From Lentzea guizhouensis (GTDB lineage: Bacteria; Actinomycetota; Actinomycetes; Mycobacteriales; Pseudonocardiaceae): 64,000 nt of DNA. The notes beneath the pieces are model-generated. The model was not told the DNA's origin. It saw only the letters and a list, made by a program, of their open reading frames with translations, and ran no database searches. The position numbers were made by a program, and so were the translations under genes. Location: positions 5,766,001-5,830,000 of the forward strand of contig NZ_CP016793.1 in the NCBI RefSeq assembly GCF_001701025.1, written 5' to 3'. This document shows, in pieces, positions 50,290-59,986 of the stretch (its first letter is position 1; each line of letters begins with the position of its first letter).

Positions 50290-51396
50290 ATGGACGGCGT
50301 GAGATTGTCCGCTGTGGACAACCTGAAAGTGGTCCTCGTGGCGTGGGTCATCGGGGGGCACGCGCTGCTGGGCTACGCCGCAATCGGTGGGTGGCCGTAC
50401 GACGAGGTCAACGAGGTCACGTTCCACCCCGGGGTGGAGACGGTGCTGGCCGCGGTGATCGGGCCGTCGGGGTTGTTCTTCATGGGCACCTTCTACTTCA
50501 TGGCCGGCATCTTCACGCCCGGTTCGGTCGAGCGCAAAGGGCGGGTCAGGTTCGTCGCCGATCGCGTGGTGCGGTTGGGGGTGCCGTGGGTGGTCAGTGC
50601 GGTTGTTGTTTGGCCGACGTTCGTGTGGGTTGCGTACAACGGGGCCGGGCGAGGGGTGTCGTGGTGGCATGCGTTCACGCACCGGGATCCGTTTTTGGAC
50701 AGCGGGTCGTTGTGGTTTGTGGGGGTGTTGTTGGTTTTCAGCGTCATCGTGGCGTTGGGGCCGCCGGTGAGGCAGCGTGCGCTTGCCACCAGGCACCTGG
50801 TGGGGATGACGGTGGTGGTGGCGGGGACGACGTTCCTGACGAGGCTGGTGTTTCCGGCGCGCAGTGGGCAGGTGGGGGATCTGCACCTGTGGTGGTGGCC
50901 GCAGTGTTTGGGGATGTTCGTGCTCGGGGCGATCGGTGGCCGGCAGCTTGCGGAGCGGGTGCCGGACGAGATCTACCGCAGGTGCCGCGACGTGGTTGTC
51001 GGCATGATCGCGTTGTTGCCGTTCGCGGCGGCGGCGATGGGGGTGCTGGATCTCGCGAAGAGTGCGGAGCCGTTCCTCGGTGGGTGGCGGTGGCAGGCGT
51101 TCGTGCTGGCCGCGGTGGAGGGGGCGCTGGTCGTGGCGGGGAGTGTGTGGCTGGTCGGGTTGGCGCAGCGCAGGTTGACCGGCCAGGGGCCGTTGGCTGG
51201 AGGGTTGGCGCGGTCGGCTTATGTGGCGTTCGTGGTGCAGGGGCCGGTTTTGTTGAGCATTGCCACGGCGTTGCGGCCGGTGGACCTTCCCGCTGAGGCC
51301 AAGGCGCCGCTCGTGGGGGCTGGGGCGATTGCGTTGTCGTTCGCGATCGGGTGGTACGTCACCGTGCGCCGAGGCGCTTCAGCACGCTCGTCGTGA
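50290..51396 (+). CDS. Acyltransferase-3 family membrane protein
   Basis: A 368-residue polytopic protein with about ten hydrophobic helices. N-terminal RLSAVDNLKVVLVAWVIGGH carries the conserved His of acyltransferase-3 proteins; RVVRLGVPWVVSAVVVWP and SLWFVGVLLVFSVIVAL match the family. It would O-acylate a sugar, lipid or small molecule at the membrane. ATG 50290 is the natural start (MDGVRLSAVDNLK). Its 3' end overlaps the convergent dxs end by 38 bases. Confidence 0.82.
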   Translation: MDGVRLSAVDNLKVVLVAWVIGGHALLGYAAIGGWPYDEVNEVTFHPGVETVLAAVIGPSGLFFMGTFYFMAGIFTPGSVERKGRVRFVADRVVRLGVPWVVSAVVVWPTFVWVAYNGAGRGVSWWHAFTHRDPFLDSGSLWFVGVLLVFSVIVALGPPVRQRALATRHLVGMTVVVAGTTFLTRLVFPARSGQVGDLHLWWWPQCLGMFVLGAIGGRQLAERVPDEIYRRCRDVVVGMIALLPFAAAAMGVLDLAKSAEPFLGGWRWQAFVLAAVEGALVVAGSVWLVGLAQRRLTGQGPLAGGLARSAYVAFVVQGPVLLSIATALRPVDLPAEAKAPLVGAGAIALSFAIGWYVTVRRGASARSS

Positions 51397-53064
51397 TGCC
51401 GGCCGCGTCGAGGCCGTGGGCGCGCAGGATGCGGGCGCGGGAGTCGTGTGGCAGGAAGCGGGGTGGCAGGGCGAAGGTTGCCACGCACGTGGGGCCGCCG
51501 GTCAGCGCTTGGCCGAGACGTGCGCCGAGTGCGCCTGTCGAGGTGGTGTCCTCGACGGCGAGCACCAGGCGGAAGCCGCTGCTGTACTTGACGAGGTGCG
51601 GGTCCAGGGGTGCGGTCCAGCGCGGGTCGACCACGGTGACGCGGACGTCGTGCGCGGCCAGCTCCTGCGCGGCGGCCAGGCACGGGCCGGCCAGCGGGCC
51701 GACCGCGACCAGCAGCACGTCGGCGCCCGGCGTCTCGTGCAGCACGTCGAAGTGGCCCACCCGCCGCACAGCGGGCACGGAAGGGCCGCGGACGCCTTCG
51801 GGTAGCGCACGACCGTGGGGCCGTCGGAGACCTCGACCGCCTCGCGCAGCAGCGCGGCCAGCGATGCCGGGTCGCGGGGTGCGGCGAGGCGCAGGCCCGG
51901 TACGACGGGCAGCACCGACGCGTCCCACATGCCGTGGTGCGAGGCGCCGTCCGGGCCCGTGACGCCGGCGCGGTCCAGCACGAACGTCACCGGTAACCGG
52001 TGCAGCGCCACGTCCATCAGCAGCTGGTCGAAGGCGCGGGACAGGAACGTCGCGTACACGGCGACCACCGGGTGCAGGCCGCCCATCGCCATGCCCGCGG
52101 CCGACGTGACGGCGTGCTGCTCGGCGATCCCGACGTCGAACACCCGCGCCGGGTAGCGCTGCGAGAACGGCCGCAGCCCGACGGGTTCCAGCATCGCGGC
52201 GGTCAGGCACACCACGTCGGGCCGCTCGGCGCCGATCGCCAGGATCTCGTCGGCGAACGCGTCGGTCCACGTCCGGCCGCCACCGGCACCGGACGCGCCG
52301 ACCGCGTGCATGCGGTCGGCCTCGTCGGTCTCCGCAGCCTCGTACCCCTTGCCCTTCATCGTCTTGCAGTGCACGACGACCGGCCGGTTCAACGACTTGG
52401 CTTCCCACAACGCGTTCTCGACGGCGTGCACGTCGTGGCCGTCCACGACACCGATGTAGGCGAGACCCAGCGCCTCGAACAACCCGCGCACCGACCCGTT
52501 GCGCAACGACGCCGCGAACCCACCGGCCGTCGGGTCGTACGAGCGGCCGTTGTCGTTCAGCAGCACCACGACGGGCCGCGACGCCCCGCCGATGTTGTTC
52601 AGCGCCTCCCAGCACATGCCACCGGTCAGCGCCCCGTCACCGACGATCGCGACCACCCGCCGGTCCGCCCCGCCGAGCTCGAACGCCTTCGCCAGACCGT
52701 CCGCATAGGACAGTGCGGTGGACGCGTGCGAGTTCTCCACCACGTCGTGCGCCGACTCGGCCGCCGACGGGTACCCGGACAGGCCACCGGCCTGGCGCAA
52801 CGAGTCGAAGTCGGTGCACCGCCCGGTCAGCATCTTGTGCACGTACGACTGGTGCCCGGTGTCGAACAGCACCACGTCCACCGGCGACGAGAACACCCGG
52901 TGCACCGCGATGGTCAGCTCGACCGCACCCAGGTTCGGCCCCAGGTGCCCACCGGTCCGGTGCACCTTCGCCACCAGGAACGACCGGATCTCCGCGGCCA
53001 GTGACGCCAGCTCGCCCGACGACAGCGCCCGCACGTCGGCGGGGGAGGTGATGTCAGCCAGCAC
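51359..53064 (-). pseudogene. dxs: 1-deoxy-D-xylulose-5-phosphate synthase (Dxs), frameshifted as written
   Basis: First enzyme of the MEP isoprenoid pathway, joining pyruvate and glyceraldehyde phosphate with thiamine diphosphate. Seen: FDTGHQSYVHKMLTG, the ThDP motif GDGALTGGMCWEALNNI...LNDN, FDVGIAEQHAVT and DRAGVTGPDGASHHGMWD. At about 51785 the frame breaks after VVRYPKASAAL; the C-terminal domain resumes in the next frame (VPAVRRVGHFDVLHETPGAD to SVLKRLGAR). One C missing in CTTCC(C)GTGCCC would restore it, so an error is likely. GTG 53064 overlaps the ispH 3' end. Last gene of the encapsulin-terpene operon; about 567 residues when repaired. Confidence 0.85.
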
Positions 53065-58576: not shown

Positions 58577-58579
58577 GAC

Positions 58580-59986
58580 CTATCCCTCGCGGCCGAGCTC
58601 GACGTGCTCCAGCACACCGATCGCGTCCGGCACCATGATGGCGGCCGAGTAGTAGGCGCTGACCAGGTAGTTGATGATCGCCTGGTCGTTGATGCCCATG
58701 AAGCGCACCGACAGGCCCGGCTGGTACTCGTCGGGGATGCCGGTCTGGTGCAGGCCGATGACGCCCTGGTTCTGCTCGCCGGCGCGGATCAGCATCACCG
58801 ACGACGTGCGGGTGTCCGAGACCGGGATCTTGTTGCACGGCAGGATCGGGATGCCCCGCCACGCCGGGACGGACTGGCCGTTGAAGTCGATGTGCTGCGG
58901 GTAGATGCCACGCTTGTTGAGCTCACGGCCGAACGCCGCGATCGTGCGCGGGTGGGCGAGGAAGTAGTTGGGGTCCTTCCACACGATCGAGAGCAGCTCG
59001 TCGAAGTCGTCCGGCGTGGGCGGGCCGGACCGGGTGTGGATGCGCTGCTTGAGGTCGGCGTTGTGCAGCAGGCCGAAGCTGCGGTTGTTGACGATCTCGT
59101 GCTCCTGGCGTTCGCGCAGGGCCTCGATCGTGAGCCGCAGCTGCTGCTCGACCTGGTCCATCGGGTGGTTGTAGAGGTCGGCGACGCGGGTGTGCACCTG
59201 CAGCACGGTCTGCGCGACGCTGAGCTCGTACTCGCGCGGCGAGAGCTCGTAGTCGACGAACGTGCCCGGCAGCACCGGCTCGCCGTCGTGACCGGAGGCC
59301 ACGTCGATCGCGGCCTCGCCGTACTCGTCCTGCGGCTTGTTGCGGCTGTTGAACGCGTGCTGGATGTGCGCGCGCAGGCCGCCGGCCTCGCCGTTGAGGG
59401 CCTGGAAGTCCTCCCAGGACAGGGTGAGGACGGTGACCGGGGTGACGGCCTTGGCGCTGTACTCCCACTCGCCCTGCGGGCCGGCCAGCACGGTCTCGCC
59501 GAAGTACTGGCCGTCGGCGAGGTTGCCGAGCACGGTTTCCCCGCCGTACTCGCCGGTGCCGACCTTGTCGACCTTGCCGTGCGCGATCAGCACGACCTTG
59601 TCCTTCGGGCGTCCCCTCTCGACGATGACGTCGCCGATGCCGTACTCGCGCTGCTGGAAGCGACCCGCCAGGGCGGCCAGCACGGCCTCGTCGTCGAACC
59701 CGCGCAGCAGCGCGAGCTCGGTCAGCTCCATCGGGATCACCCGGACCTCGGAGCCGGTGTTGGTGAACGAGACGCGGCCGTCCCCCAGCGTGTAGGTGAG
59801 ACGGCGGTTGACGCGGTACGCACCACCCGCCGCCTGCACCCAGGGCAGGACCTTGAGCAGCCAGCGGGAGGTGATTCCCTGCATCTGCGGGACGGACTTG
59901 GTGGTCGTGGCCAGATTACGAGCGGCGGCCGTACCCAAACTCAGCTGCTGACGGCCCTCATTGAGGTCAGAATCCGTCAAGGTCAC
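58580..59986 (-). CDS. Encapsulin shell protein 2 (Family 2B, with internal CNB-like domain)
   Basis: A 468-residue paralogue of shell protein 1, same length and domain order. N-arm TAAARNLATTTKSVPQMQG; CNB-like insert (about 92-212: YGIGDVIVERGRPKDKVVLI; YFGETVLAGPQGEWEYS, no Arg at the phosphate site); HK97 core from DVASGHDGEPVLPGTFVDYE, the spine helix VEQQLRLTIEALRERQEHEI and the end YLVSAYYSAAIMVPDAIGVL. First gene of the seven-gene operon. I chose GTG 59986 because AGGTGG sits eight bases upstream and it aligns with the start of shell 1; GTG 59995 adds three residues. It probably mixes with shell 1 in one capsid. Confidence 0.9.
   Translation of the reverse strand: MTLTDSDLNEGRQQLSLGTAAARNLATTTKSVPQMQGITSRWLLKVLPWVQAAGGAYRVNRRLTYTLGDGRVSFTNTGSEVRVIPMELTELALLRGFDDEAVLAALAGRFQQREYGIGDVIVERGRPKDKVVLIAHGKVDKVGTGEYGGETVLGNLADGQYFGETVLAGPQGEWEYSAKAVTPVTVLTLSWEDFQALNGEAGGLRAHIQHAFNSRNKPQDEYGEAAIDVASGHDGEPVLPGTFVDYELSPREYELSVAQTVLQVHTRVADLYNHPMDQVEQQLRLTIEALRERQEHEIVNNRSFGLLHNADLKQRIHTRSGPPTPDDFDELLSIVWKDPNYFLAHPRTIAAFGRELNKRGIYPQHIDFNGQSVPAWRGIPILPCNKIPVSDTRTSSVMLIRAGEQNQGVIGLHQTGIPDEYQPGLSVRFMGINDQAIINYLVSAYYSAAIMVPDAIGVLEHVELGREG

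Follow-up and report, generated by a model that had tools for sequence, protein, structure and literature searches.

A stretch of 64,000 nucleotides from Lentzea guizhouensis (hereafter the window; the source genome is 10.0 Mb on one contig) contains a leftward operon of seven genes, the predicted function of which is terpene synthesis enclosed by a protein shell. It encodes two Family 2B encapsulin shell proteins (Enc1 and Enc2), a class I terpene cyclase (TC1), a cyclase-like twin (TC2), a polyprenyl diphosphate synthase (PPS) and two enzymes of precursor supply, IspH and Dxs. We consider it probable that these genes form a two-shell terpene compartment in which TC1 is catalytic and TC2 is a tagged, non-catalytic partner, with precursor-supply genes alongside. 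Two points are unusual: the combination of a terpene cyclase (TC) with both IspH and Dxs, and a tag-bearing cyclase half that looks dead.

The genes are ordered Enc1, TC1, TC2, Enc2, PPS, IspH and Dxs from position 59986 down to 51359 (Table 1). Enc1 and TC1 are separated by 3 bases, TC1 and TC2 overlap by 8 and TC2 and Enc2 lie 39 bases apart; Enc2 and PPS share an ATGA overlap, 19 bases separate PPS from IspH, and IspH and Dxs overlap by 11 bases. This run, with its gaps and overlaps, was first described in a sequence-only reading of the window and was reproduced from the sequence. The same reading proposed looking for the seven-gene order in other genomes, where it was found, with matching flanks, in 17 named Lentzea-type loci. 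With TC2 as the query, 18 loci were retrieved: 16 from named Lentzea, one under the label Nocardia sp. NRRL S-836, whose gene order and flank are as in Lentzea, and one from Spongiactinospora. Moreover, 23/24 genomes of the genus have Enc1, TC1, TC2, Enc2, IspH and a match to dxs in collinear order, the remaining genome (G013) contributing a 3.7 kb contig with a partial Enc1 only. PPS, for which no genus-wide search was made, was observed in all 17 named loci as well as in G011, G017 and G019. With 17 flank-matched loci and 23/24 genomes collinear, the gene order is conserved beyond chance. Within the window genome PF19307 is matched at two places in all, both inside the operon.

Table 1. Features of the seven-gene operon and its upstream region (positions in the window)
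Feature	Position	Strand	Basis or remark
Enc1, Family 2B encapsulin shell protein, HK97-type with cNMP-type domain	58580..59986	-	NF041163, PF19307, PF00027, motif IVWK
TC1, class I terpene cyclase	57497..58576	-	PF19086, PDB 5dw7, motifs DDEFF and NDIFSYERE
GPTGLGTSAA tag near TC1 C-terminus	57521..57550	-	published putative targeting motif type
TC2, cyclase-like twin without DD and NSE metal motifs	56497..57504	-	overlaps TC1 by 8 bases
PSGLGTAA tag, TC2 C-terminus	56512..56535	-	within modelled disordered stretch, residues 316-335
Enc2, second Family 2B shell protein	55051..56457	-	NF041163, PF19307, PF00027, motif RRRN
PPS, polyprenyl diphosphate synthase, frame-broken near 54815	54015..55054	-	family match of piece; whole in relatives
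IspH, 4-hydroxy-3-methylbut-2-enyl diphosphate reductase, whole frame	53054..53995	-	TIGR00216, PF02401
Dxs, 1-deoxyxylulose-5-phosphate synthase, frame-broken near 51789	51359..53064	-	whole in most relatives
Twin 13-bp palindromic sequences (60312-60300, 60290-60278)	60278..60312	-	upstream of Enc1, candidate operator

That the operon holds a prenyl synthase, ispH and dxs, as claimed from the sequence, stands as far as the families go, and IspH is whole (297 bits against TIGR00216, cut-off 187.85); however, PPS and dxs are frame-broken in the window. Their spans, 1040 and 1706 bases, are not divisible by three. The break leaves PPS 16 bases short of four relatives and 13 short of G008, and dxs 1 base short. 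Because it is frame-broken, the window PPS fragment reaches 380 bits against NF041169 (f2_encap_cargo4, cut-off 450), compared with 473 for the relative L005, whilst the window Dxs gives 454 and 39 bits against TIGR00204 in two frames, short of the single-frame cut-off of 465.95. PPS and Dxs each align as a single unbroken match spanning >95% of the length in every one of the 17 named Lentzea-type loci, and the operon dxs scores above its curated cut-off in 21/24 genus genomes, the exceptions being the window, G011 (two frames) and G013 (contig end). With both genes interrupted in the window, the case for a supply arm holds for the relatives only.

These breaks bring forward the alternative that the locus is decaying, in which case the PPS and dxs breaks and the dead TC2 would be stages of loss and the shell system would no longer work in this strain. 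An independent dxs break in G011 and the loss of the TC2 motifs are in keeping with this, as are the two breaks in the window. However, we think it unlikely, given the whole PPS and Dxs of all 17 named relatives and a median ratio of non-synonymous to synonymous substitution (dN/dS) of 0.12-0.28 across the seven genes, in a set from which Enc2 of L008, L014 and L070 (a stop within the match), the window's PPS and Dxs, and every gene of L070 were excluded. Lone breaks are also more numerous in the window, in line with errors in the sequence or damage throughout the strain. G015 and G018 served as control genomes. Of the 57 G008 frames used as reference, some of which are antisense, seven have a break in the window but in neither control (PPS, Dxs and five others); the corresponding counts for breaks in one control only are none (G015) and one (G018). 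The five others, single in G015/G018, lie at 26597-27484, 29164-29877, 31115-32206, 36574-37875 and 51867-53540 of the G008 reference, corresponding to about 43319-44202, 40946-41585, 38545-39592, 31606-32854 and 17839-19400 in the window. Three frames are single in the window yet broken in both G015 and G018; the control is not clean, and the excess fits either assembly indel errors or wider gene damage.

Further whole dxs copies lie elsewhere in the genome at 273914-275749 and at 8751145-8752872, over the cut-off, and further whole ispH copies at 1973353 and 8750158. A second ispH-dxs pair belongs to the region 8747000-8756000 (L100), where a GcpE (ispG) frame comes next and a cytochrome P450 match is close by; the part of the genome fetched there has no match to a shell protein. 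This set is a methylerythritol phosphate (MEP) module in another cluster. In the prenyl synthases of the relatives, positions -5 and -4 relative to the first DDxxD are F and S, which we take, from the chain-length rule, to lean towards a C20 product. The solved kin of TC1 are, judged by their names, mostly sesquiterpene (C15) cyclases, and the chain length may be C15 or C20.

Both shell proteins passed the profile search for Family 2B by which the sequence-only reading had proposed that they be judged, with 773 (Enc1) and 751 (Enc2) bits against NF041163 (cut-off 400) and 462 and 459 bits against PF19307. A cyclic nucleotide monophosphate (cNMP)-type insert, PF00027, occupies residues 111-195 and 113-198 respectively, the two proteins are ~63% identical, and their closest solved chains are 9bix, 9bje and 9bhu. 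PMC12407261 sets two shell genes ≤10 kb apart as the mark of a two-component Family 2B system, and Enc1 and Enc2 lie within this distance. In the Streptomyces lydicus pair described there, diagnostic motif 1 is TVWK in Enc1 and RRRK in Enc2. Because the window has IVWK and RRRN, as do the genus rows (20/20 Enc1 and 17/17 Enc2), the two are assigned by sequence as an Enc1/Enc2 type pair. Control of the shell by cyclic AMP was set aside, as these domains bind no cyclic nucleotides according to PMC12407261. The position of the TC genes between Enc1 and Enc2, and of PPS after Enc2, could suggest two separate shells, one for the cyclases and one for the prenyl synthase, and a 2021 survey (PMC8346489) leaves room for separate assembly. 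However, the two S. lydicus shell proteins co-assemble, and Sl-Enc1 alone makes no shells (PMC12407261), and since the window pair has the same diagnostic motif types we regard separate shells as quite improbable.

TC1 scores 491 bits against germacradienol/geosmin synthase (PDB 5dw7). Class I terpene cyclases have aspartate-rich and NSE metal motifs, and both are present in 20/20 TC1 rows. In TC2, HD replaces DD and the NSE asparagine is gone in 19/20 rows, a set that excludes L095 (G011). Therefore, of the two cyclase genes read from the sequence, TC1 keeps its class I metal motifs, whereas TC2 has lost both and looks catalytically dead. TC2 is modelled, on a 14-row alignment, with a class I terpene-synthase fold and a disordered tagged tail. 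Only in L069 (G017), alone in the genus, do TC1 and TC2 share a single open frame.

A relationship of the two cyclases to a two-domain geosmin-synthase-like (GS-like) enzyme is supported by their matches to the N and C parts of the cargo cyclase model NF041168 (735 positions), at 590 and 276 bits. They are two separate chains, each below the cut-off of 1200, and not the two-domain single chain that the model describes. The TC2 half groups outside the geosmin-type C-domain clade, and TC2 is not the geosmin-type C-domain with metal motifs that marks a geosmin synthase. Geosmin was dropped as the best reading of the product in view of the TC2 motif loss and of a separate GS-like gene in the genome. 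Use of NF041168 as proof of encapsulation was likewise rejected, as a 715-residue cut of that other GS-like gene scores 1050. A GPTGLGTSAAR-like motif is the putative targeting motif of GS-like encapsulin cargo (PMC8346489), and such a motif follows each cyclase domain (GPTGLGTSAA in TC1, PSGLGTAA in TC2).

Purifying selection on TC2, its predicted intact fold and the translational coupling that is likely through the 8-base overlap would also suit a TC2 that is catalytic by a different, metal-independent site, or that completes the TC1 active site as a heterodimer. Most rows, however, have neither metal motif, and TC2 evolves faster than TC1 (median identity 0.82 vs 0.94), which makes this a rather remote prospect. 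Very improbable is the model of the sequence-only reading, in which both halves are active and jointly make a geosmin-type product in the shell: the matches to the GS-like model, the modelled class I fold and the C-half metal motifs retained in L070 agree with it, but the asparagine missing from 19/20 TC2 rows, the placement of TC2 outside the clade and the separate GS-like gene do not.

Several observations weigh against our preferred reading of a two-shell compartment with a catalytic TC1 and a non-catalytic TC2. The TC2 motifs DDYF and NDIVSFEKD are still present in L070 (G019), whose Enc1 diverges most within the genus, and L004 from Lentzea albidocapillata subsp. violacea, L020 and L069 retain GLGT without the trailing AA. 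An intact TC2 fold is no proof of inactivity, and NF041168 cannot tell encapsulated from other geosmin-synthase-like proteins. With PPS and dxs broken in the window and G011 having a dxs frame break of its own, decay would fit too, and the share of IspH and Dxs in the transcript is inferred from gene overlap only.

Under the preferred reading, Enc1 and Enc2 would co-assemble into a mixed shell, by analogy with the S. lydicus pair, and the C-terminal tags would load TC1 and TC2 into it. PPS would make a prenyl diphosphate, C15 or C20, that TC1 would turn into a cyclic product different from geosmin; TC2 would act as a non-catalytic partner, be it a cargo adaptor or a dimer partner. Dxs and IspH, the first and last MEP steps, would raise C5 supply, most likely in the cytosol, with the other steps provided by genes elsewhere. 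Family 2B cargo loading and the role of the second shell protein are left open by PMC12407261 (2025). Our tentative hypothesis, somewhat less likely than its converse, is that pseudo-cyclases are dedicated non-catalytic cargo subunits of Family 2B terpene encapsulins. On this view a two-domain cyclase was split in Lentzea and its second half lost the metal site while keeping fold, tag and purifying selection, with a split, motif-less and tagged half also in G422 (L164). The dead half would help to load cargo, act as a spacer or be an allosteric partner, and so set how much cargo the mixed shell takes up. A conserved pair of motif-intact and motif-less cyclases with the same kind of tag offers a natural test of the tag on a protein free of catalytic duty.

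The next gene upstream of Enc1, on the same strand, is HbpS-like and ends at 60389, about 400 bases before Enc1. The twin palindromes are recognisable, with small changes, in 18/18 aligned upstream regions.

The operon was compared with 60 loci of the same family outside the genus (58 genomes), hand-picked among the matches listed from a 249-genome survey; better-scoring rows were at times passed over, and fractions of the 60 are not frequencies. Cyclases unlike TC1/TC2 would escape detection in these loci and in the class loci below. The architecture was Enc-TC-Enc-PPS in 20, Enc-Enc-PPS in 19, Enc-Enc-PPS-IspH in 9, Enc-Enc-PPS-IspH-Dxs in 10 and another in 2, giving IspH in 19/60 and Dxs in 10 of those, whilst TC combined with IspH or Dxs occurred in 0/60 of these hand-picked loci. 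A further 20 loci from the class, with a GS-like cyclase adjoining a shell gene, were hand-picked among the matches listed from a 394-genome survey, and in 20/20 the cyclase is one frame. Only in L080 (G353) do PPS, IspH and Dxs all follow Enc2; L081 (1/20) has IspH upstream of Enc1. In L085-L092, which come from another actinobacterial family (f20), a one-frame GS-like gene comes directly after a single Family 2B shell gene.

Within the family, the cyclase is split in 6/20 TC loci. Five are from genomes of one other genus (L133, L145-L148), where the split C-half keeps its metal motifs and has no terminal GLGT tag; the sixth, G422 (L164), from a genus other than Lentzea, has a split C-half without metal motifs that keeps GPTGLGT. 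C-half metal motifs are also lost in L131, L132, L134 and L141, partly lost in L136, and lost in L083 of the class set. From these architectures and motif losses it follows that the Lentzea operon unites two operon kinds and that loss of the second catalytic site recurs. L131, L132 and L134 encode two-domain cyclase-like proteins between Family 2B shells with the metal motifs gone from both domains, and are candidates for fully non-catalytic encapsulin cargo.

A split cyclase was therefore rejected as a unique trait, as were dxs and ispH, in view of the family loci and of the shell-less ispH-dxs-GcpE set in the same genome. The suggestion that including dxs and ispH is unusual fails for related shell operons (ispH in 19 and dxs in 10 of the 60) and survives for their combination with a TC. 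That an IspH/Dxs module recurs beside genes for shells and prenyl synthases suggests that selection has favoured precursor supply as part of these compartments.

Gene order and family matches support the original description: a terpene encapsulin operon of the two-component Family 2B kind that also encodes a prenyl synthase, IspH and Dxs of its own. Among the literature matches listed, at the level of titles and abstract starts, none described this operon or a dead cargo cyclase. A paper on encapsulated 2-methylisoborneol synthesis reportedly exists. Operons with a TC between the shells and a prenyltransferase (PT) downstream have been published as a type (PMC12407261), and here too the TC lies between Enc1 and Enc2 and the PT after Enc2; precursor genes in PT encapsulin operons are likewise already published (PMC8346489).

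Compared with the S. lydicus Sl-Enc1/Sl-Enc2 mixed shell, both shell types are present here, with IVWK/RRRN replacing TVWK/RRRK at motif 1. With the two-component TC/PT operons (PMC12407261, PMC8346489) it shares the Enc1-TC-Enc2-PT order, the motif types, a GS-like cyclase and GPTGLGT-type tags, but the Lentzea cyclase is split into overlapping genes, its second half is motif-less, and IspH and Dxs are appended. Against the germacradienol/geosmin synthase N-domain (PDB 5dw7, 5dz2) TC2 reaches just 173.6 bits, with the metal motifs lost. Enc-Enc-PPS-IspH is shared with two-component PT operons that carry precursor genes, but those, unlike Lentzea, have no GS-like cyclase between their shells. 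Spongiactinospora sp. TRM90649 (L019) shares Enc1-TC-Enc2-PPS-IspH, with no Dxs match within the fetched stretch, and L080 shares the whole Enc1-TC-Enc2-PPS-IspH-Dxs order. In both, however, the cyclase is in a single frame with metal motifs in both halves, unlike the Lentzea TC1/TC2.

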